Below, piece after piece: positions 18,328 through 38,541 of a stretch of DNA of 38,801 nt. The stretch lies in IMG/VR virus record IMGVR_UViG_3300045789_000579, positions 1-38,801 of that record; one strand, 5' to 3'. Made by a program: the position numbers and the translations under genes. Each line of letters begins with the position of its first letter. Positions within the stretch are counted from its first letter, which is position 1. The notes under the pieces are model-generated. The model did not search any database. It was not told the DNA's origin and saw nothing but the letters and a program-made list of their open reading frames with translations. The DNA comes from a virus.

Positions 18328-18606
18328 CTATTTTGAAATAAGATCATCTATTAGCTGTTTACCACATTCAACAGAATCTACTACGTAAACCCTAAAGCCT
18401 TCGTCTTCTATTCTAGACATAACCTTATATTGAAGTTTTGTAGGGACTTTGCCAGGGGCTTTGAACTCTATGAACATCATCACGCCCTGCCTGATGAAGA
18501 TCCTATCAGGAACCCCTCGGTTATTAGGAGAGACGAATTTGTAAGCTAGCCATTGGTTTTGTTTGGCATACGCACAAACTCTTTTCTCAATTTCAGATTC
18601 TCTCAT
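18328..18606 (-). CDS. VRR-NUC nuclease
   Basis: A 92-residue protein matching the stand-alone VRR-NUC domain of the PD-(D/E)XK superfamily. It has an N-terminal helix with ESEIE, then NNRGVPDRIFI containing the catalytic aspartate, and MFIEFKAPG with the E-x-K pair. VRR-NUC proteins cut flaps or Holliday-type junctions and in phages commonly partner an SNF2 helicase, which is encoded just downstream here. The start overlaps the deaminase gene by 14 bases. Confidence 0.85.
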   Translation of the reverse strand: MRESEIEKRVCAYAKQNQWLAYKFVSPNNRGVPDRIFIRQGVMMFIEFKAPGKVPTKLQYKVMSRIEDEGFRVYVVDSVECGKQLIDDLISK

Positions 18607-19024
18607 GTATACACACTATTCCTAATTTCCTTAGTAACTCTATACCCGACGTGTCGACGTATTCATCAGAATAGAACACTTCTTTGCAACTCGTATTCGC
18701 AATTAACTTGGCGCATGTTATACATGGAGAGGTTGTGCAATAAATAGTATCAATATCCATAACGTCATCACATTGCAATAACGCATTCTGTTCAGCATGA
18801 GTAGCCATACACGAATCTAATCCTTTGGAGCTTTGTCCGCTTTGCCCTCCGCAAGGAGTATCGGTGCAATGCTTAAAGCCTCTAGGAACGCCGTTATACC
18901 CGGTTGCTTTTATATGGCCATACTTATTGATGATCACGCAACCTACTTCCCTCCTAGGGCAAGTCGCCCTAGTAGCGACTAACGAGGCTATTTTTAAAAA
19001 GTATATATACTTCGGCTCTCTCAT
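18593..19024 (-). CDS. dCMP deaminase
   Basis: A 143-residue zinc deaminase. The catalytic HAE is at residues 76-78 and the zinc-binding PCITC at 100-104. The preceding CPRREVGCVIIN and TGYNGVPRG are typical of dCMP deaminases, and extra cysteines near 53-72 resemble those of T4-type enzymes. It converts dCMP to dUMP, the substrate for thymidylate synthases and dUMP hydroxymethylases, and might also deaminate 5-hydroxymethyl-dCMP. It overlaps the pyrophosphorylase-like gene stop (ATGA), placing it in the base-modification operon. Confidence 0.9.
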   Translation of the reverse strand: MREPKYIYFLKIASLVATRATCPRREVGCVIINKYGHIKATGYNGVPRGFKHCTDTPCGGQSGQSSKGLDSCMATHAEQNALLQCDDVMDIDTIYCTTSPCITCAKLIANTSCKEVFYSDEYVDTSGIELLRKLGIVCIHERI

Positions 19025-20142
19025 AAAAAATTACCCGTTTTGACCATTTGCTTATAGTCATTTATTGTTATTCCTGATTGATCTAGGATTTTAGTATCTG
19101 ATGGATGGCCACTGCCATTGAATGTGTCGACTAGCCCTAGCTCTAACATAGGCTTTTGCCTACCGAAAGGATGGTCTTTGATGCCGTGGCTTGACCAGAC
19201 AGTATCTAAGTCTAAATGCGAATAATCTAGTTTGGGATTTATGTAGTTCTCAATCCACCTGATAGCGTCGCACGCTACATCTTCGGCATTGTAGGCAAGC
19301 ATGCCTGTGTCTTTGCTTATTTTTTCCATGACGGAATCTAAAAAATCCATTTGAGACTTAGCTTTAGGCCTATCTGCTAGGAAGTTTAAGCATTCCGTTG
19401 CGTTTTTTCCATAAAAGAAAGGCGAAGATACTTCGACTAGATCAGGGAAAAAATCAGCAATGTCGGCAAGTGTTGCCGCGTATTGGAACCTAAACACTCG
19501 GAAACCTCTATCCTTGTTGTATTTCTCAAGCCAAGACATCATGGATCTGAAATCTAATTTCTTATTAGATATATGAGAAGCAAAACGACGAACTAGATCA
19601 GGTAAGACTTCGCACATAAACCAATCACCTCCTCTGATATAATCACCTTCAGGCTTAGGGAACGGGGCTATCTGATACCCTGAAGATGTGAATTTCGGAC
19701 CTTTATGGTTCCTGATCACATTGGCCATGTCATCAATAGAATGACATTCGTTAAAATATAAAAGAACAGAGTTATGGTACCCCGACATACGCGATGCATA
19801 GTTGATTCCGGATCCTGTCAAGCGATGGACAAAAAAAGTATACAACCACTCCTCTAATGACCAAAAAGATGTATCAAACCTGGTGACAACTGCCGATCTA
19901 ATGGCACTCATTTTATGTGCATACGGGTGATTTTTTTCAGAGTATCTAATATCTAAAAGCAATTGAGTAAATCCAGCGTATTTTCTTTCAACGACATCGT
20001 ATAATCTTACATTTTTTATAAGATCATCATCAAAAGGAGTTTCGCTATATGGAATATCTCCTAGATTACAATTATAGTGTTGCCATTTGGACATTTCGTA
20101 ATAACGTAAGAACTCATCATAATATTTTGTAGTATTAGGCAT
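19021..20142 (-). CDS. Alpha-glutamyl/putrescinyl-thymine pyrophosphorylase-like protein
   Basis: A 373-residue protein starting MPNTTKYYDEF. The ATG at 20142 has a GGAGG site 9 bases upstream. Key stretches are WLYTFFVHRLTGSGINYA (residues 100-116) and TSSGYQIAPFPK (152-163). These resemble by eye the phage aGPT-PPlase2 family, which derives from helix-hairpin-helix DNA glycosylase-like proteins and replaces the pyrophosphate of 5-pyrophosphoryloxymethyl-uracil in DNA with an amino acid or polyamine. The surrounding hydroxymethylase, kinase and PLP-like genes support this. No database search was possible; a DNA glycosylase-like protein of other function is the alternative. Confidence 0.6.
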   Translation of the reverse strand: MPNTTKYYDEFLRYYEMSKWQHYNCNLGDIPYSETPFDDDLIKNVRLYDVVERKYAGFTQLLLDIRYSEKNHPYAHKMSAIRSAVVTRFDTSFWSLEEWLYTFFVHRLTGSGINYASRMSGYHNSVLLYFNECHSIDDMANVIRNHKGPKFTSSGYQIAPFPKPEGDYIRGGDWFMCEVLPDLVRRFASHISNKKLDFRSMMSWLEKYNKDRGFRVFRFQYAATLADIADFFPDLVEVSSPFFYGKNATECLNFLADRPKAKSQMDFLDSVMEKISKDTGMLAYNAEDVACDAIRWIENYINPKLDYSHLDLDTVWSSHGIKDHPFGRQKPMLELGLVDTFNGSGHPSDTKILDQSGITINDYKQMVKTGNFL

Positions 20143-21046
20143 GGTCAAATGCCTCCAAGTCACCCCACTCTCTGACGGCGTCAACGGCTTCCCATCCGTC
20201 CAAACCTACTAATCTAGATTCTATTTGGTGATCACTACCGACATTAATAAATATTGCCCCAGGAGCGCCTTCGTCGATGAATCTCTTATAGGCTTTGGCG
20301 TCATATGTAGAAGTTGTCAGGAACTCAGGTATGAAATCAGAATGTTTATAAAACGATTTATGATAAGTCACCACATCAGCATCGCCTTTTTCACCGTCTT
20401 TAATATTTCTAGCTACAGCTACGCCGACAGCCTTAGCTCCAGGCCAACCTAATTGCAATGCCCTTATCATCGTTCCTGTCGATACAGCACAATAGAATTC
20501 TGAAGGTTCACCATGCATCACAGTATGGTCTTCACACATATTGACAAGCCCTGCTGTAACTATAGGGGTATCTGCGAGCCCGAACGGTAAGGCAATGCCG
20601 TCGAACCTTTTTGCCCATTTCCTTATCCACGCATTCAGTGTTGTCATTGCTGGAATTTTAGCAAATCTAAGATCGCACCCATACGCTTTAACAACAGATT
20701 GATGAGCAGTTACTTGCTTAGACGCCGCAGCGAAAAACACTGTTTTCTTATCGTACATTTCTGACAACATCGCTATTGCCTCTGCAGCATGGCCTACCCT
20801 TGGAGCGGCATAACCTAATAGCTCACTGTCTATTGTTGCTATTAATTTCTCAGCGCCATACGCCTTAAGGCCGCACGGGCCTTTAGCAAAGTCTAATATG
20901 AAAATGTCACCTCTCTCAGGGGATGGATAAAAAGCCGGGGCAGGCAATTTTGATCTAAAACTACCATAAAGCTTTAAGTAGTATTCCTTAGAATCGCCAT
21001 CAAGGCATTTATCCTTATTTCGATTACTTTCTGTTATCTGATACAT
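20135..21046 (-). CDS. PLP-dependent enzyme, fold-type II (ACC deaminase/cysteine synthase-like)
   Basis: A 303-residue protein from the ATG at 21046. A likely PLP-binding lysine lies in KGPCGLKAYGAEKL (K61). The glycine-rich phosphate-binding loop is probably VSTGTMIRALQLG (188-200), followed by AVGVAV, as in D-cysteine desulfhydrase and ACC deaminase relatives. The segment VFFAAASKQVTAHQ corresponds to the substrate-loop region. In hypermodified-thymidine phages PLP enzymes process the amino acid attached to the base, for example by decarboxylation. Its position between the pyrophosphorylase-like and SGNH-like genes fits that role. The family call is moderately sure and the reaction is inferred. 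Confidence 0.5.
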   Translation of the reverse strand: MYQITESNRNKDKCLDGDSKEYYLKLYGSFRSKLPAPAFYPSPERGDIFILDFAKGPCGLKAYGAEKLIATIDSELLGYAAPRVGHAAEAIAMLSEMYDKKTVFFAAASKQVTAHQSVVKAYGCDLRFAKIPAMTTLNAWIRKWAKRFDGIALPFGLADTPIVTAGLVNMCEDHTVMHGEPSEFYCAVSTGTMIRALQLGWPGAKAVGVAVARNIKDGEKGDADVVTYHKSFYKHSDFIPEFLTTSTYDAKAYKRFIDEGAPGAIFINVGSDHQIESRLVGLDGWEAVDAVREWGDLEAFDHA

Positions 21047-21048
21047 GA

Positions 21049-22032
21049 TCACCACCCAATAATAGAGTTATAATTTTTCGGAGCAATATGTACTGAGCTG
21101 GACAATTCCATAATTTCTTTGGCATATTCTTCGCCTCCCATCATGTACCAATGCGATGGAGGGATTACGACATCGAAATCACAACAGTATGACATCAATC
21201 TATCTATAAATCTCATTGTGAAATCTAATCTCTCAGATCTAGATCCATTGAAGTTTGCGCCTTTATATTGGCCTGTTTTCGGTAGTTTTCTTTCTTCGTG
21301 TTCTACCGGCACAGGGGCGCATGGCGATATTTTTATTCCTAAAGACTGCTGAGCTGAAATTATTTGCTCTGCATAAGCTTTAGACAAGCTTTCGATATAG
21401 TCGTCCTTGCCGTAAGAATGGAACCTTATATCTATAGAGCCTAGACATAGAGTTACGTCGCCATATTTTTGTGCATTGTTATCTATAATAAAATCATGAA
21501 GGCTAGCATATAGAGCCGAATATAAAGTTTTGCCGTTTATCTTTTTGATTGCCTGCCTACTTGTCGAATAGGCGACGCTATGGCTGTCGCCAAGGATAAC
21601 ACTATCTAATCCTATATCATCCATCGTCAAGGTAGTGGCAGAAGATAAGCACGAATCAAGACTGTTTAAAAAATCAAAATCTACTAATTTAGAAGTTGTT
21701 TTTGCCCCTAATCTTTTTTCTATTTGATCGACATAATTTGCTTCGTTCATAGGTATATCTAACGAGAAAAGTTTAGATCCTTTAGACACCTCGTTCATTA
21801 TCTCTTTGCACCTATTTACGCAGTCGTCGTTAAAGCCGCCGAACAGGTTCATTGGCCCTGAAAAATTAACCCCATGGTCAATATAGATATTGCCAAATCG
21901 GGATATAGAATCGCCTTTAGTGGCTATTTTTGCACCTAACCTCTGTGACCAAGCCTCTGACCAACCTCTGACATGAGATTTGTCAGATTTAGGAATCGGT
22001 GTAAATGGGTTTGTAATCATATGCCCTCCCAT
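21049..22032 (-). CDS. SGNH/GDSL-hydrolase-like protein in the modification operon
   Basis: A 327-residue protein. The ATG at 22032 has GGAGG 6 bases upstream, and MITNPF at 22020 is a second possibility. The N-terminal 140 residues are of unknown type. VILGDSHSVAY (146-156) is an SGNH block I with the nucleophilic serine. LCLGSIDIRFH (195-205) resembles the GEIDCR-type block, and SSVHIAP near residue 315 could supply the catalytic histidine. SGNH enzymes hydrolyse or transfer acyl groups. Lying between the hydroxymethylase and PLP-like genes with minimal spacing, it may act on the modified base or its precursor. This is inference. Confidence 0.5.
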   Translation of the reverse strand: MGGHMITNPFTPIPKSDKSHVRGWSEAWSQRLGAKIATKGDSISRFGNIYIDHGVNFSGPMNLFGGFNDDCVNRCKEIMNEVSKGSKLFSLDIPMNEANYVDQIEKRLGAKTTSKLVDFDFLNSLDSCLSSATTLTMDDIGLDSVILGDSHSVAYSTSRQAIKKINGKTLYSALYASLHDFIIDNNAQKYGDVTLCLGSIDIRFHSYGKDDYIESLSKAYAEQIISAQQSLGIKISPCAPVPVEHEERKLPKTGQYKGANFNGSRSERLDFTMRFIDRLMSYCCDFDVVIPPSHWYMMGGEEYAKEIMELSSSVHIAPKNYNSIIGW

Positions 22033-22033
22033 T

Positions 22034-22693
22034 TCAATCCTCCAATAAGTGAAAGTGCCTAGGATATACATGTAAGGACGCTGCGTTCCAATACATGTTA
22101 CCTTTGGTCAAGTTAGGGTACATGCCTTTTAATTCATCTAATGCCTTATTGAATACAACGTCATGCCAGTATTTGTCATTCTTATATCCAAATACAGCAT
22201 CGTTAGACCGCATGTAGACAATATAGTTTAATTTTCCATTGCGTATCATTAATTGAACAGCGTATGTACACATAAAGTCCTTCATCCCGTCGACAAATGC
22301 GTCTTTATGCATAGTAGGCCGAATATAGATCATCGCCGACTGGCGACTACCAATATCTTCAGCAAGGCAGTTTATTGCTTCTTGGTATTGGTAAAAGTTT
22401 TCTTTTGAAAAAATGCACCAACCGTAATTTGAATTGATCATCCCATGTTTACTAGACACTTGCTCCCAAATTTTAGGTGTTTTACACGACATGTCGAAGA
22501 CATCCAAGCTCATAGAGTTGTACCATTCAACTTCGCATTCGGCATATTCACTGTTGACTGTTCCGAATATGCTCGGCTCATCTGCTATAAATGCAGCATT
22601 GACTATCTCATAAGTATCGTTATTTGCTTTATCACCTAGCCGGTAAAGGGTTTTTAAATGGTCCCTAACGTCAGAGACATTATGTGTAATCAT
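22034..22693 (-). CDS. Thymidylate synthase-like dUMP/dCMP hydroxymethylase
   Basis: A 219-residue protein with a thymidylate synthase fold. IWEQVSSKHGMINSNYGW precedes SRQSAMIYIRP. The catalytic cysteine is C142 in DFMCT. MRSNDAVFGYKND matches the RSxDxFLGxPFN motif, and SLHVYPRHF matches DxHIYxNH. Divergence from ordinary ThyA and the presence of ThyX in the same genome suggest it makes 5-hydroxymethyl-dUMP (or -dCMP) from formaldehyde carried by tetrahydrofolate. By ungapped alignment, Asp173 occupies the position of the uracil-selecting asparagine (E. coli Asn177), leaving substrate choice open. It overlaps the kinase gene by 4 bases. Confidence 0.75.
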   Translation of the reverse strand: MITHNVSDVRDHLKTLYRLGDKANNDTYEIVNAAFIADEPSIFGTVNSEYAECEVEWYNSMSLDVFDMSCKTPKIWEQVSSKHGMINSNYGWCIFSKENFYQYQEAINCLAEDIGSRQSAMIYIRPTMHKDAFVDGMKDFMCTYAVQLMIRNGKLNYIVYMRSNDAVFGYKNDKYWHDVVFNKALDELKGMYPNLTKGNMYWNAASLHVYPRHFHLLED

Positions 22694-23181
22694 GTTTGAT
22701 CCCCCCTTAAACAGATTACTAACGACTTAATGATATTTAAAAATCTGTCTTTAGTTGTATTATTAGGAACAGTGTAATGGCAGTCGGATTCTGTTATTTC
22801 AAATGACGAGAAAGATTCTAATGGGATCCTGTTAGAAGCGTCTACCCATATTATTTTATCGAATAAGTGTTTGCTCGCTTCAAATTCTGTTTTAGATCTC
22901 ATTCCGCAATAAATATCATTTTCAGATAAAATAGCTTTAGATAACCGACTCTCATCACCTTCATTAAATTTTCTTATCAAGTTAAACCATTCTTCGCGAC
23001 GGTTAACTCTATCGTCGAAACACTCCTGCTCAGATGTATAATCACTACCTATCGCCGGCATGATTATATTTTTCAAACAATATTCAGACGATGACGTAAA
23101 TTTGAATGAGTAATTATCCCTCAATACTTCACACAAAGTGTCTTTGCCGTGTCTCGCATGGCCCAATACTAGGAGTTTCAT
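22690..23181 (-). CDS. P-loop nucleotide kinase (dNMP / 5-hmdU kinase-like)
   Basis: A 163-residue protein with the Walker A loop GHARHGKDT (residues 7-15). A downstream segment DRVNRREEWFNLIRKFN and then IYCGMRSKTEFEA and DKIIWVDASNR are typical of phage deoxynucleotide kinase-like proteins. It could raise 5-hydroxymethyl-dUMP toward the triphosphate, or phosphorylate 5-hydroxymethyl-uracil within DNA as the step before amino-acid transfer. At 163 residues it lacks the extra helical domain expected of full 5-hmdU DNA kinases. It overlaps both neighbours by 4 bases. Confidence 0.65.
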   Translation of the reverse strand: MKLLVLGHARHGKDTLCEVLRDNYSFKFTSSSEYCLKNIIMPAIGSDYTSEQECFDDRVNRREEWFNLIRKFNEGDESRLSKAILSENDIYCGMRSKTEFEASKHLFDKIIWVDASNRIPLESFSSFEITESDCHYTVPNNTTKDRFLNIIKSLVICLRGDQT

Positions 23182-23564
23182 TCTAATTCCTCAACAAGGT
23201 CAGATAATACAGGAGATTGCCAGCCTTTAGGCTTGACAAGATCTAAAGCAAAAGAATCCCTTTTCTTATTAGGTCCTATTTCTTTCATACAATTCGCTGC
23301 CATAACACGATTGAATCCTTGATTGAATACCTCAAGCATCCCTTGCCTTTCTGCAGTCCCTAGAGCAAATACGATCAGGTCGATCAATGCGTCTAACTCA
23401 TCTTCACGAGTTTCAGCATCGATATATTCATCGAGCTCTTCCTGCATTGCCATTATTCTGAATTCTTTTTCTTTTAGTGAAAAAGGAACTTCGTCACATG
23501 TGATCCCGAACTTAGTATGCATCTTTTTTATACGGCTTAAAATTTCTGGTAATTGGTGGCTCAT
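23178..23564 (-). CDS. MazG-like nucleotide pyrophosphohydrolase
   Basis: A 128-residue all-helical protein. MAMQEELDEYIDAETREDELDALIDLIVFALGTA contains the E-E-x-x-E and E/D-x-x-D metal-binding pattern of the MazG/phosphoribosyl-ATP pyrophosphohydrolase superfamily. It would cut a dNTP to dNMP plus pyrophosphate. At the head of the modification operon, dUTP or dCTP hydrolysis to feed dUMP or dCMP is plausible. The C-terminal segment KPKGWQSPVLSDLVEEL is typical of phage members. The start sits after a short leader and the stop overlaps the kinase start. Confidence 0.75.
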   Translation of the reverse strand: MSHQLPEILSRIKKMHTKFGITCDEVPFSLKEKEFRIMAMQEELDEYIDAETREDELDALIDLIVFALGTAERQGMLEVFNQGFNRVMAANCMKEIGPNKKRDSFALDLVKPKGWQSPVLSDLVEELE

Positions 23565-23583
23565 TTATTTCTCCCGGTTAAGT

Positions 23584-23754
23584 TTAATTAAATTCTTCTC
23601 TGGCAACATACTCCATGTGATTCTCACGCAGTGTTTCTGAATGCTTCCTATTAAGGGCGTTAGCTATGTCAATAGCTTTACCTCGGGTCTGGCCTATCAT
23701 TATTGTTTCTTTATAATTTGCCGGCCCGACTAATATCACGTTGAATATCCTCAT
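23584..23754 (-). CDS. Small unknown protein (56 aa)
   Basis: A complete small reading frame encoding MRIFNVILVGPANYKETI to MEYVAREEFN. The ATG overlaps the stop of the upstream gene (ATGA) and has GAGGA 5 bases upstream, so it is well supported as a gene despite its size. The composition is a beta strand, a helix with KAIDIANALNRK, and another short helix. No family was recognised. It lies inside the operon that starts at the promoter near 24010. Confidence 0.6.
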   Translation of the reverse strand: MRIFNVILVGPANYKETIMIGQTRGKAIDIANALNRKHSETLRENHMEYVAREEFN

Positions 23755-23957
23755 TGTGTTCCTCTGATCATCCTTAGAATTGTTTGCTCATGGGTTTCGC
23801 CTTGTTCCTTTAGTTTTTCTAGCCTGTCCAGTATGGCATCTTTTACCGATATGAGGATCTTACCGTCTTTTTCTTCTTCTTTTTTGAATACTCTTGGTGA
23901 TATTTTTTCAAGCTTTTTATATGTCAAAAAACTAACGTGTATCATTTTCATTTTTAA
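23751..23957 (-). CDS. Small charged protein, possibly ribbon-helix-helix
   Basis: About 68 residues from the ATG at 23957 (MKMIHVSFLTYKKLEK). Other ATGs lie at 23969, 23966 and 23951. A short strand is followed by lysine- and glutamate-rich helices (FKKEEEKDGKILISVKDAIL, then DRLEKLKEQGETHEQTILRMI). The strand-helix-helix pattern would suit a small ribbon-helix-helix DNA-binding protein, but no diagnostic motif is seen. It is the first gene after the predicted promoter at 23984-24012 and so heads the base-modification operon, a common place for an autoregulator. Confidence 0.5.
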   Translation of the reverse strand, partial: LKMKMIHVSFLTYKKLEKISPRVFKKEEEKDGKILISVKDAILDRLEKLKEQGETHEQTILRMIRGTQ

Positions 23958-23983
23958 TCCTTTCATCATTATATTTCAATAAG

Positions 23984-24012
23984 ATTATAAATTAAATATT
24001 AGATATTGTAAA
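23984..24012 (-). promoter_or_regulatory. Promoter of the base-modification operon
   Basis: On the minus strand the -35 box is TTTACA (24012-24007) and the -10 box TATAAT (23989-23984), with the ideal 17-base spacing. The sequence covering the -35 (about 24008-24025) is a degenerate version of the GTAAAA-N4-TTTTAC operator seen at other early promoters. Transcription would run through the small proteins, MazG-like, kinase, hydroxymethylase, SGNH-like, PLP-like, pyrophosphorylase-like, deaminase and VRR-NUC genes. Confidence 0.65.
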
Positions 24013-29995: not shown

Positions 29996-30628
29996 CTATA
30001 ACGTGGTGTTGAAAGAAAATGAAGTTCCCGAATGACGATTATAGGTTGCGTCTGGTATTACCCCTGTGTATTTGCACCCTTCTATCAATGTCTTAGCCAT
30101 ATCTAAAATCTCTATGTTTTTTTCACAATGGCCCTTATCATTTAATACTTGCTTCATTTTTTGATCTAAAATATTCAAAAGGTGTTCACTACCTTCAGTG
30201 TTATCAATTAAGTTTTGTATTTTCTTACAATCTGATTCACGCGAAGACAATGTTTCATTAGCCCGCAACTTAGACGCCTCAATACTTCTAGAAATGTCTT
30301 TGACAAAATCGAATGGAACAAAACTATTACGATCCAAAATAGCAGTATATAGCTCGCAAATACATTGCCATGCTTCCTGCTCAACAGACTTGGGCTGTTC
30401 GGTTTTACCTGTTTTGTCGTAAGCACTCCTCCTAGTAGGATCTTTAAGAATATGATAGGCCTTTTGAAGTTCCTTAAACTGTTCTTCAGTGCCTTCACAA
30501 TCCTCATTGCCTTTACCTTTGTTTTTGTCAGGGTGCAATTTTTGAGCTTTCTTTTTAAAAGACTTTTTTATATCATCCAGGGTCGCTTCTTTTTTAACGC
30601 CTAGAACTTCATACAAGTTATCGATCAT
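29996..30628 (-). CDS. DnaJ-like co-chaperone
   Basis: A 210-residue protein. Residues 1-75 are a J domain (YEVLGVKKEATLDDIKKSFKK, HPDKN with the HPD motif, then FKELQKAYHILKDPTRRSAYD). The remaining 135 residues are helical, lack the zinc-finger and substrate domains of DnaJ, and match nothing known to me. It probably recruits host DnaK for replication complex assembly or protein folding. It overlaps the ThyX stop by 4 bases, so it is co-translated with it. Confidence 0.8.
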   Translation of the reverse strand: MIDNLYEVLGVKKEATLDDIKKSFKKKAQKLHPDKNKGKGNEDCEGTEEQFKELQKAYHILKDPTRRSAYDKTGKTEQPKSVEQEAWQCICELYTAILDRNSFVPFDFVKDISRSIEASKLRANETLSSRESDCKKIQNLIDNTEGSEHLLNILDQKMKQVLNDKGHCEKNIEILDMAKTLIEGCKYTGVIPDATYNRHSGTSFSFNTTL

Positions 30629-31335
30629 TTTTCTACACGAGTGCTAGTTGTTATTTCGATGCCGTTTGTTTCCATGAAAGCTTCTACACAAACGGGGGCA
30701 ATTTCTTTCAACATTAATAATATCTCAACAGCGTATGCCCTGATTTCATATTGTGCATGCTCGTGTAGGCGCTCACGTAAAAAATTAAACCAGTTATGTA
30801 GGTTAGCCGTCGCAAACATATGAGAGTAAGTCCCAACAGGTAAAACAGATCTTGCTAACTCTCTTGGACAACCTTGATCTATGAGCGATCTATAGGTAGA
30901 AAACGCAGCTTCATTTTGCGATCTGATTATCACTTGCATCACGTAACCATTTGGATGTATCTCGTCAGTTCGCATCTGCTTATTATCAGTCGATTGAGTG
31001 GTAATCTGATCTAACTCAGGAACATAAAACTCTTCAGGTAATTCACGATACCTTGCCGACAACTCATTATAAGACTGGGTTCGATGGCGATGCCATTGCC
31101 TGAATACAAATATAGGTGCTTTGATTTCAAATGACACCGTAACTGATTCAAAAGGGGTGTTGTGGTGGTTCTTATATAGATATTTAATAAGTCGCTTGTC
31201 GCCGCCCTTATCCTCACCGGCCCGCCAAGCGGCATCGTAAGACACCCTAGCGTTTCTAACGACGGAAAGATCACTACCCATATGATCAACGAGCCTAATT
31301 AACCCGTGATCTAGGACTTTTATAGATTTATTCAT
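30625..31335 (-). CDS. thyX: Flavin-dependent thymidylate synthase ThyX
   Basis: A 236-residue protein with the ThyX signature RHRTQSYNELSARY (residues 83-96). Other conserved parts are HHNTPFESVTVSFEIKAPIFVFRQW and GCPRELARSVLPVGTYS, then NWFNFLRERLHEHAQ. It converts dUMP to dTMP using FAD, NADPH and methylene-tetrahydrofolate. Having ThyX leaves the TS-fold protein at 22034 free for hydroxymethylation. The start has AGG in its leader and follows the GC-rich region 31336-31499. Confidence 0.9.
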   Translation of the reverse strand: MNKSIKVLDHGLIRLVDHMGSDLSVVRNARVSYDAAWRAGEDKGGDKRLIKYLYKNHHNTPFESVTVSFEIKAPIFVFRQWHRHRTQSYNELSARYRELPEEFYVPELDQITTQSTDNKQMRTDEIHPNGYVMQVIIRSQNEAAFSTYRSLIDQGCPRELARSVLPVGTYSHMFATANLHNWFNFLRERLHEHAQYEIRAYAVEILLMLKEIAPVCVEAFMETNGIEITTSTRVEK

Positions 31336-37063: not shown

Positions 37064-37753
37064 GTGAATTATAAAATTAAGAACAGATACACAGGTGAAG
37101 TGATTTTAACATTGGAAAACAGAGCCAACCTTCGTGGAGCCAATCTTCGTGAAGCCGACCTTCTTGGAGCCGACCTTCGTGGAGCCAACCTTTATGGAGC
37201 CAACCTTCGTGAAGCCGACCTTCTTGGAGCCGACCTTTGTGGAGCCGACCTTCGTGGAGCCGACCTTCGTGGAGCCAACCTTCGTGTAGCCGACCTTCGT
37301 GAAGCCAACCTTCGTGGAGCCAATCTTCGTGAAGCCGACCTTCTTGGAGCCGACCTTCGTGAAGCCAACCTTCGTGGAGCCGACCTTCGTGGAGCCAACC
37401 TTCGTGGAGCCAACCTTTATGAAGCCGACCTTCGTGGAGCCAACCTTTATGGAGCCAACCTTCGTGAAGCCGACCTTCGTGGAGCCAACCTTTATGGAGC
37501 CAACCTTCGTGGAGCCGACCTTCGTGGAGCCAACCTTCGTGAAGCCGACCTTCTGATCATCCAGAATATCGGTAGTGAGTCAGGAACACTAATAGCAACA
37601 TGGGAAGGTGATGATTGTCATGTAACACGAGGTTGCTTCAGTGGAACTCTTGGTGAGTTTGAAGAAGCAGTGAAAAAGACCCATGAAGGTTCTCAGTACT
37701 ATCATGAGTACATGCATGTAATAATGTTAATCCAATTAAGAATGAAGAAATAA
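37064..37753 (+). CDS. Pentapeptide repeat protein
   Basis: A 229-residue protein starting at GTG 37064, with AGGAG 6 bases upstream. Residues about 22-165 are some 28 pentapeptides of the A(D/N)LRG / A(D/N)LxE type, which form a right-handed four-sided beta helix. The last 65 residues ([19 protein letters not shown] to LRMKK) match the C-terminal tail common in phage pentapeptide proteins. Qnr/MfpA-type pentapeptide proteins mimic DNA and bind gyrase, but most phage members have no tested function, so gyrase or restriction-enzyme inhibition is only a possibility. Confidence 0.8.
37130..37552 (+). repeat. 15-base tandem repeat array encoding pentapeptides
   Basis: About 28 copies of a 15-base unit of the type GCCAACCTTCGTGGA run without interruption. 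Variants affect mainly two codons (GAC/AAC and GGA/GAA), and the silent positions are nearly constant, so the array looks recently expanded and likely varies in copy number. Long open frames on the other strand and phases here are by-products of the repeat. Confidence 0.85.
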
Positions 37754-37830: not shown

Positions 37831-38541
37831 TTGATTAATTTAATGCAGGGTGACTGCCTTGAAAAAATGAAAGAAATACCTGACGGCTCAGTTGATATGA
37901 TTTTGACTGACCCGCCTTATGGTACTACAGGTTGTAAATGGGATTCAGTTATACCGATAGAGCCAATGTGGGAGCAGTTGGAGCGAATTATTAAGCCTAA
38001 TGGGGCGATTGTGTTGTTTGGGAGTGAGCCGTTTAGCAGTGCTTTGCGTATGAGCAATATTAAGCAATATAAGTATGATTGGGTTTGGGATAAAAGACTG
38101 CCTAGCGGTATGCAGTTGGCGAAGTATAGGCCGATGATGAGACATGAGAATGTGGTTGTTTTTTGTTTCAATGGAACACCTAACTACTACCCAATAAAAA
38201 CACCACAAAAGAAACGAACAGGTAAAATTCATTCAAAAAGTGAAACATCACCGATAGCCTATGATGACGGAAAGCTAAAAACTTACACTGAAAAGAATCC
38301 ACAAAGTATTCTTGAATTTTATAAGCGTGATGGTAAATCACTACACCCAACCCAAAAACCAGTTGGCCTAATGGAGTATCTGATTAAAACTTACACCAAC
38401 GAGGGCGAAACTGTTTTAGATTTTACAATGGGCAGTGGTAGTACTGGCGTAGCTTGCAAGAACCTAAACCGTAAATTTATTGGTATAGAGCTAGATGAAG
38501 AATACTTTAAGATTGCACAAGATAGAATTAGTGCAACATAA
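37831..38541 (+). CDS. DNA adenine/cytosine-N4 methyltransferase (beta class)
   Basis: A 236-residue protein from a TTG start; GGAG lies 6 bases upstream and MINLMQGDCLEKM is a typical N-terminus. Motif IV is DPPYG (about residues 27-31) and motif I is DFTMGSGSTG near residue 198, so the order is that of beta-class enzymes. HPTQKPVGLMEYLI is motif X-like. It transfers methyl from S-adenosylmethionine to adenine N6 or cytosine N4; target bases cannot be read from sequence. In a phage it would protect DNA from host restriction. It seems to be carried on an integron-like cassette. Confidence 0.85.
   Translation: MINLMQGDCLEKMKEIPDGSVDMILTDPPYGTTGCKWDSVIPIEPMWEQLERIIKPNGAIVLFGSEPFSSALRMSNIKQYKYDWVWDKRLPSGMQLAKYRPMMRHENVVVFCFNGTPNYYPIKTPQKKRTGKIHSKSETSPIAYDDGKLKTYTEKNPQSILEFYKRDGKSLHPTQKPVGLMEYLIKTYTNEGETVLDFTMGSGSTGVACKNLNRKFIGIELDEEYFKIAQDRISAT

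Follow-up and report, generated by a model that had tools for sequence, protein, structure and literature searches.

The closest described systems modify either cytosine or thymidine. The 5-hydroxymethyl-cytosine (hmC) system of phage T4 comprises a dCMP hydroxymethylase (gp42), a dCTPase (gp56), a deoxynucleoside monophosphate (dNMP) kinase (gp1) and a beta-glucosyltransferase (BGT). On contigs with modified cytosine, a thymidylate synthase (TS)-fold domain with Asp at position 177 co-occurs with PRA-PH/MazG and dCMP deaminase domains, the residue at this position setting the choice of substrate in the fold (Asn for dUMP, Asp for dCMP), and in the carbamoyl-hmC system the C5 handle of cytosine is decorated by a carbamoyltransferase (PMC8670742). 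In a 5-carboxymethyl-cytosine system, glycine is attached to a cytosine derivative through a Cx-SAM methyltransferase and an amide ligase (PMC12783734). Amino-acid-based hypermodification via a hydroxymethyl base has so far been described for thymidine, and the M6/SN1 cassette encodes a hydroxymethylase, Nmad5, aGPT-PPlase1, a kinase, a radical SAM protein, a pyridoxal phosphate (PLP) enzyme and aGPT-PPlase2 (PMC9476957). Here we describe an operon in the IMG/VR virus record IMGVR_UViG_3300045789_000579, whose 38,801 bases constitute the window that we analyzed. We consider it probable that this is a cytosine hypermodification operon, in which hmC in DNA would be decorated with an amino-acid-derived group. 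A first-pass annotation had predicted hypermodification of a DNA base from a gene run that includes a TS-fold hydroxymethylase, a PLP-like enzyme, an SGNH-like protein and an aGPT-PPlase-like protein, here called X. Our results support this outline, relate the PLP enzyme to that of M6 and X to transferases of helix-hairpin-helix (HhH) fold, and move the pathway from thymidine to cytosine.

The choice of base follows from the TS-fold protein. It matches PF00303 (3e-11) in Pfam, and its best PDB match is the T4 dCMP hydroxymethylase (E 2.4e-61 over 201 residues), compared with 1.6e-8 for the best thymidylate synthase. Its closest phage relatives are the gp42 proteins of T4-like phages (44-54% identity). 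Asp173, which corresponds to position 177 of Escherichia coli TS, was Asp in 26 of 26 sequences initially and in 36 of 36 of a wider set, and the nucleophile Cys142 is Cys in all 36 relatives. By sequence, this is a gp42-type enzyme with predicted dCMP hydroxymethylase activity. The window also encodes a flavin-dependent thymidylate synthase (ThyX) apart from the operon, and since ThyX would make dTMP, the TS-fold enzyme need not do so and can serve another purpose. Because of the gp42-type enzyme with Asp at position 177 and the presence of ThyX, we conclude that the operon would build on hmC and not on the 5-hydroxymethyl-uracil assumed in the first-pass annotation; the phage very probably makes hmC in place of cytosine. 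The operon also holds the complete set reported in PMC8670742, that is, a TS-fold protein of Asp177 type, a PRA-PH/MazG protein and a dCMP deaminase.

The SGNH-like protein, the PLP enzyme and X form an almost inseparable module that many IMG/VR contigs carry. Scans with X yielded 29 contigs, and profile scans of one viral collection with the SGNH-like protein and the PLP enzyme gave 301 and 283 candidates confirmed by tblastn, of which 80 each were kept. All three genes occur together in 128 of 168 loci, which are not independent, given that some share a contig and some contigs were counted several times; many of the other loci are cut by contig ends. Among loci that were picked by the SGNH-like protein alone and had flanks of 5 kb or more on either side, X was found in 28 of 28 and the PLP enzyme in 26 of 28. 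When loci were picked by the PLP enzyme alone, X and the SGNH-like protein accompanied it in 22 of 25, and the contigs of the remaining three hold both genes elsewhere. The module occurs in five gene orders. In one 225-kb phage (IMG/VR contig G018, L269:580-2940) the SGNH-like protein and X are a single protein of 786 amino acids, and the same contig has a separate PLP gene and a TS-fold protein whose specificity residue is Asp. Hydroxymethylase, MazG and deaminase genes adjoin the module in most of the 168 loci, and because the same set recurs in so many viral contigs, this gene set is far above chance. The module is carried both by contigs with the gene content of small phages and by contigs with T4-like replication genes, and X is also present on four contigs binned into bacterial metagenome-assembled genomes. 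A search beside the module for further conserved tailoring genes turned up only recognizable replication genes and a DUF6378-like gene. Note that at L037:1915-3049 X appears as two overlapping open reading frames (ORFs) of 169 and 273 amino acids, possibly by a frameshift or sequencing error.

The SGNH-like protein, for which 22032 or 22020 is the probable start rather than 22071, joins two parts. Its C-terminal part carries an invariant GDSH motif and an invariant final His317 (both 54/54); three of the 18 relatives compared with Pfam matched SGNH, weakly (E 0.002 at best), and the PDB search gave no match to the protein. A profile of 50 relatives aligns with the N-terminus of T4 BGT (hhalign score 40.6, P 1.2e-4), and the score rose to 44.9 when Aeromonas proteins were added; controls reached at most 24.2 in 100 column-shuffled profiles, 13.3 in the reversed profile and about 21 or less in unrelated families. 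With BGT residues counted from this alignment, N70-FFGG74 and D100 of BGT fall on N64-LFGG68 and D94 of the SGNH-like protein with equal spacing (30), and across 54 rows N64 is conserved in 52, LFGG in 50-53 and D94 in 48. In BGT, the flipped hmC is contacted by this stretch, and Asp100 serves as general base. The alignment ends at BGT residue 105-119, so that the UDP-glucose-binding half was not recognized by profile alignment, and the remainder is the GDSH domain. The natural reading of these similarities is that the enzyme would bind hmC in DNA and work on its hydroxyl, the GDSH domain replacing the UDP-glucose half. We therefore propose it as a predicted hmC-DNA O-acyltransferase or activating enzyme.

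The same SGNH-like domain makes up the N-terminal half of ST44RRORF233c and related proteins of T4-like phages that infect Aeromonas; gp42 is encoded by several of these phages. In phage 44RR2.8t (L005:5995-8382) the protein has 795 amino acids and carries another C-terminal domain. We considered whether this second domain could be X; sequence gave no support, the only match being to HMUDK_hel below threshold (E 0.0036). A gene beside ORF233c encodes a predicted SSF sodium:solute symporter.

Protein X belongs to no sequence family in Pfam, PHROG or PDB searches. An AlphaFold model built on 20 sequences (pLDDT 75, pTM 0.75) replaced an earlier one from 4 sequences (pLDDT 57), which gave meaningless structural matches and was discarded. 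The best of 312 chains compared with the model was PUGT (8z2n; Z 10.4 and root-mean-square deviation 3.8 over 208 residues), the enzyme of phage PaMx11 that acts as glycinyltransferase on 5-phosphomethyl-dU. Nearly all matches that came after it were HhH DNA glycosylases (Z 4-8). Foldseek alone also placed PUGT first, at a non-significant E of 0.74. Among the predicted viral structures of BFVD, a relative with 49% identity is named amino acid:DNA transferase domain protein, and phage ADDT and HMUDK helical proteins matched more weakly. When profiles of X, including one of 45 diverse members, were compared with HMUDK_hel, ADDT and the 44RR C-terminus, hhalign gave no signal above controls, a weak test in which HMUDK and ADDT did not find each other either. 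The HMUDK helical domain (PF18723) was absent from the window and from 13 related contigs in a search that was positive in M6 and phiW-14. Overall, X is likely a PUGT-like transferase of HhH fold, as judged from its model. The first-pass annotation had called it aGPT-PPlase-like, a call that gains no support from sequence and is favored by structure prediction; its own refuting condition, a predicted structure unrelated to HhH glycosylase-like folds, did not arise, PUGT and HhH glycosylases being the best solved matches.

The PLP enzyme matches phrog_7093 (4e-37). Pfam PALP was found in 12 of 18 relatives (best 2.2e-8), and Lys61 is invariant (44/44). The enzyme aligns at 22% identity with gp52 of the M6 thymidine cassette, which bears the same annotation as phrog_7093, and the two have in common the Lys and a Ser-x-Gly-Thr motif. 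The PLP-like call of the first-pass annotation, for which it had suggested a search against PLP fold II, is thus upheld, with kinship to the M6 pathway. Two relatives are annotated as DNA modification methylases, gp1 of Erythrobacter phage R6L (L006/L115) and a protein of Microcystis phage Mae-JY30 (L116:3295-5613); the former lies inside a frame of 872 amino acids, and the latter gene comes after two ParB/sulfiredoxin genes.

The remaining genes of the operon point to nucleotide supply. The MazG-like enzyme, a conserved neighbor in most of the 168 loci, probably returns dCTP to dCMP, a substrate assigned from homology. The P-loop kinase is probably an hm-dCMP/dNMP kinase with a role like that of T4 gp1; its relatives in marine phages adjoin, or are fused to, MazG-like genes, so that it reads most simply as a nucleotide kinase. 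It was not detected in any of the 168 loci. We considered it as the missing DNA kinase of the conserved core and rejected it on that count, and the first-pass annotation's view of this kinase as a cooperating part gives way to that of a probable nucleotide-level enzyme outside the core. In relatives, a small DUF6378-like protein lies between MazG and the hydroxymethylase (L004:1189-1539, L126:2991-3302 and about 30 other loci), the position that the P-loop kinase occupies in the window.

The run of overlapping genes described in the first-pass annotation is present in full, every ORF lying on the minus strand between 23969 and 18593 with overlaps of a few bases (Table 1), and Pfam or PHROG matches back its calls of dCMP deaminase, MazG-like, P-loop kinase, TS-fold and PLP-like proteins. 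A megablast of the region against 50,697 phage records revealed no close DNA relative. The promoter proposed upstream of the operon has the hexamers and spacing claimed for it and is the best sigma-70-like site within 10.5 kb. However, promoter-like sites in the region are no commoner than in shuffled sequence, and for this reason a promoter driving the operon is only plausible.

Table 1. Features of the operon and of other parts of the window
Feature	Position	Strand	Evidence or remark
dCMP deaminase (dUMP for ThyX), predicted	18593..19024	-	PF00383 2.3e-20; phrog_174 5e-43
Protein X, HhH-fold, PUGT-like amino-acid:DNA-transferase-like	19021..20142	-	AlphaFold model; no Pfam, PHROG or PDB sequence match
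PLP-dependent fold-type-II enzyme	20135..21046	-	phrog_7093 4e-37; Lys61 putative PLP lysine
SGNH-like protein	21049..22032 (start maybe 22020)	-	BGT-like hmC-acceptor motif (N-LFGG...D) and GDSH domain
dCMP hydroxymethylase (T4 gp42 ortholog), predicted	22034..22693	-	PDB 1b49/1b5e E 2.4e-61; Asp173, Cys142
P-loop kinase	22690..23181	-	phrog_139 dNMP kinase 7e-7; phrog_38514 4e-38
MazG-like (PRA-PH) nucleotide pyrophosphohydrolase	23178..23564	-	PF01503 1.5e-4; phrog_671 2.7e-15
Small ORF, 56 amino acids	23584..23754	-	no family match (Pfam, PHROG)
Small ORF, 72 amino acids, first of run	23751..23969	-	no family at cut-off (Pfam, PHROG)
Sigma-70-like promoter TTTACA-17-TATAAT	23984..24012	-	11/12 consensus positions; function inferred
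Protein with DnaJ-like N-terminal stretch	29996-30628		directly downstream of thyX
ThyX flavin-dependent thymidylate synthase	30625..31335	-	TIGR02170 4.6e-53, above curated cut-off; apart from operon
Pentapeptide-repeat-like protein	37064-37753		A[DN]LRGA repeats; near record end
DNA methyltransferase	37831-38541		phrog_67, 5e-83; near record end

These genes suggest a pathway for whose supply steps homology gives strong support. The MazG-like enzyme would deplete dCTP by turning it into dCMP, which the gp42-type enzyme would convert to 5-hydroxymethyl-dCMP, and kinases would raise this product to hm-dCTP for incorporation by the phage polymerase, with the deaminase and ThyX maintaining the dTTP supply. 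For the tailoring steps, we infer the order, the acyl chemistry, the amino acid and the product. The SGNH-like protein would recognize hmC in DNA via its BGT-like N-terminal part and act on the hydroxymethyl oxygen, most likely by an acylation that serves as activation and replaces the DNA kinase of thymidine systems; alternatively, it may remove a group. X may then attach an amino acid to hmC, and the PLP enzyme may reshape it by decarboxylation or by beta-elimination or replacement. We offer only tentatively, as a widespread undescribed route, the specific sequence in which hmC is activated by the BGT-like/GDSH chimera with an ester and not a phosphate as leaving group, is substituted by the HhH transferase and is finished by the PLP enzyme. 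Resistance to host nucleases is a likely benefit of DNA modified in this way.

A number of observations weigh against this pathway. The hydroxymethylase was not detected on five contigs that carry all three module genes; these may be fragments or rely on another source of hmC. X showed no sequence match to HMUDK_hel, and PF18724 (ADDT) matched none of 20 X members or 14 contigs, with M6 gp51 as positive control (1.4e-46). A Z of 10 is no more than suggestive for a helical protein such as X, and values below 13 in helical proteins may reflect a common arrangement. The SGNH label of the first-pass annotation fits the GDSH motif and the weak Pfam matches but not blocks III and V, where G[SN][IV]D stands for GxND and M-E-x-x-x-x-V-H for DxxH. 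Finally, no enzyme for an acyl or amino acid donor was identified. The contigs without a detected hydroxymethylase would also suit a module that targets something besides phage DNA bases, such as host metabolism, RNA or defense, and merely travels with nucleotide genes. We hold this to be very unlikely, because hydroxymethylase, MazG and deaminase adjoin the module in most loci and its proteins are predicted to have BGT-like and HhH DNA-base folds.

Two further explanations retain a DNA base as the target. In one, hmC is made and the SGNH-like protein is a simple hmC O-acyltransferase with an ester as product, X and the PLP enzyme having separate roles, for example in making or loading an acyl or aminoacyl donor. 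The BGT-like N-terminus and GDSH motif do point to direct O-transfer, and Aeromonas phage 44RR and Tenacibaculum phage PTm1 have the SGNH-like protein without detectable X or PLP enzyme. This explanation is nevertheless unlikely, since X and the PLP enzyme nearly always adjoin the SGNH-like gene, X is once fused to it, and the predicted fold of X resembles that of DNA-base enzymes. The other explanation is the thymidine hypermodification of the first-pass annotation, with a TS-fold enzyme that makes hm-dUMP and the rest as in M6. It would account for the kinship of the PLP enzyme to that of M6 and for the resemblance of X to an enzyme acting on 5-phosphomethyl-dU. We regard it as the least probable of all, given a gp42-type hydroxymethylase whose relatives all have Asp as specificity residue, a dTMP supply already provided by ThyX, and the lack of HMUDK_hel in the window and 13 related contigs and of any Pfam ADDT match. 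We favor a pathway that decorates hmC with an amino-acid-derived group. If true, this would extend amino-acid chemistry to a second base and offer a set of enzymes that install amines on hmC. The module is common in one viral collection, so environmental phages may widely contain a DNA base that is as yet undescribed. The end product is probably new, as the first-pass annotation had suspected; our literature search found no paper on this cytosine module or its DNA product and no experiment on any member.

The operon thus appears to combine features of several known systems. With T4 it shares an orthologous hydroxymethylase, the logic of nucleotide supply and the BGT-like acceptor motif. Unlike in T4, its tailoring enzyme has a C-terminal GDSH domain in place of a recognizable UDP-glucose-binding half and is accompanied by the PLP enzyme and by X, with its predicted HhH fold. 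The thymidine systems of M6, SN1 and PaMx11 have the PLP family in common with it, and the modeled fold of X resembles that of PUGT (aGPT-PPlase2/ADDT type). However, the hydroxymethylase here is of cytosine type, HMUDK_hel (aGPT-PPlase1), a Pfam ADDT match and radical SAM are absent from the operon, and the SGNH-like enzyme sits where these systems have a DNA kinase. The carbamoyl-hmC system has the same TS-Asp177, PRA-PH and deaminase set and differs in its tailoring enzyme, and the tailoring enzymes of the 5-carboxymethyl-cytosine system are also unlike those of the operon. Aeromonas T4-like phages 44RR, 25, 31, Aes012 and UP87 carry the same SGNH-like domain in the functionally unannotated ST44RRORF233c family (phrog_13881/17781), within a group that also encodes gp42. 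In contrast to the operon, the domain is fused to another C-terminal domain in 44RR and UP87, and neither PLP enzyme nor X was detected in 44RR. The presence of the domain in these cultured phages makes part of the system directly testable.

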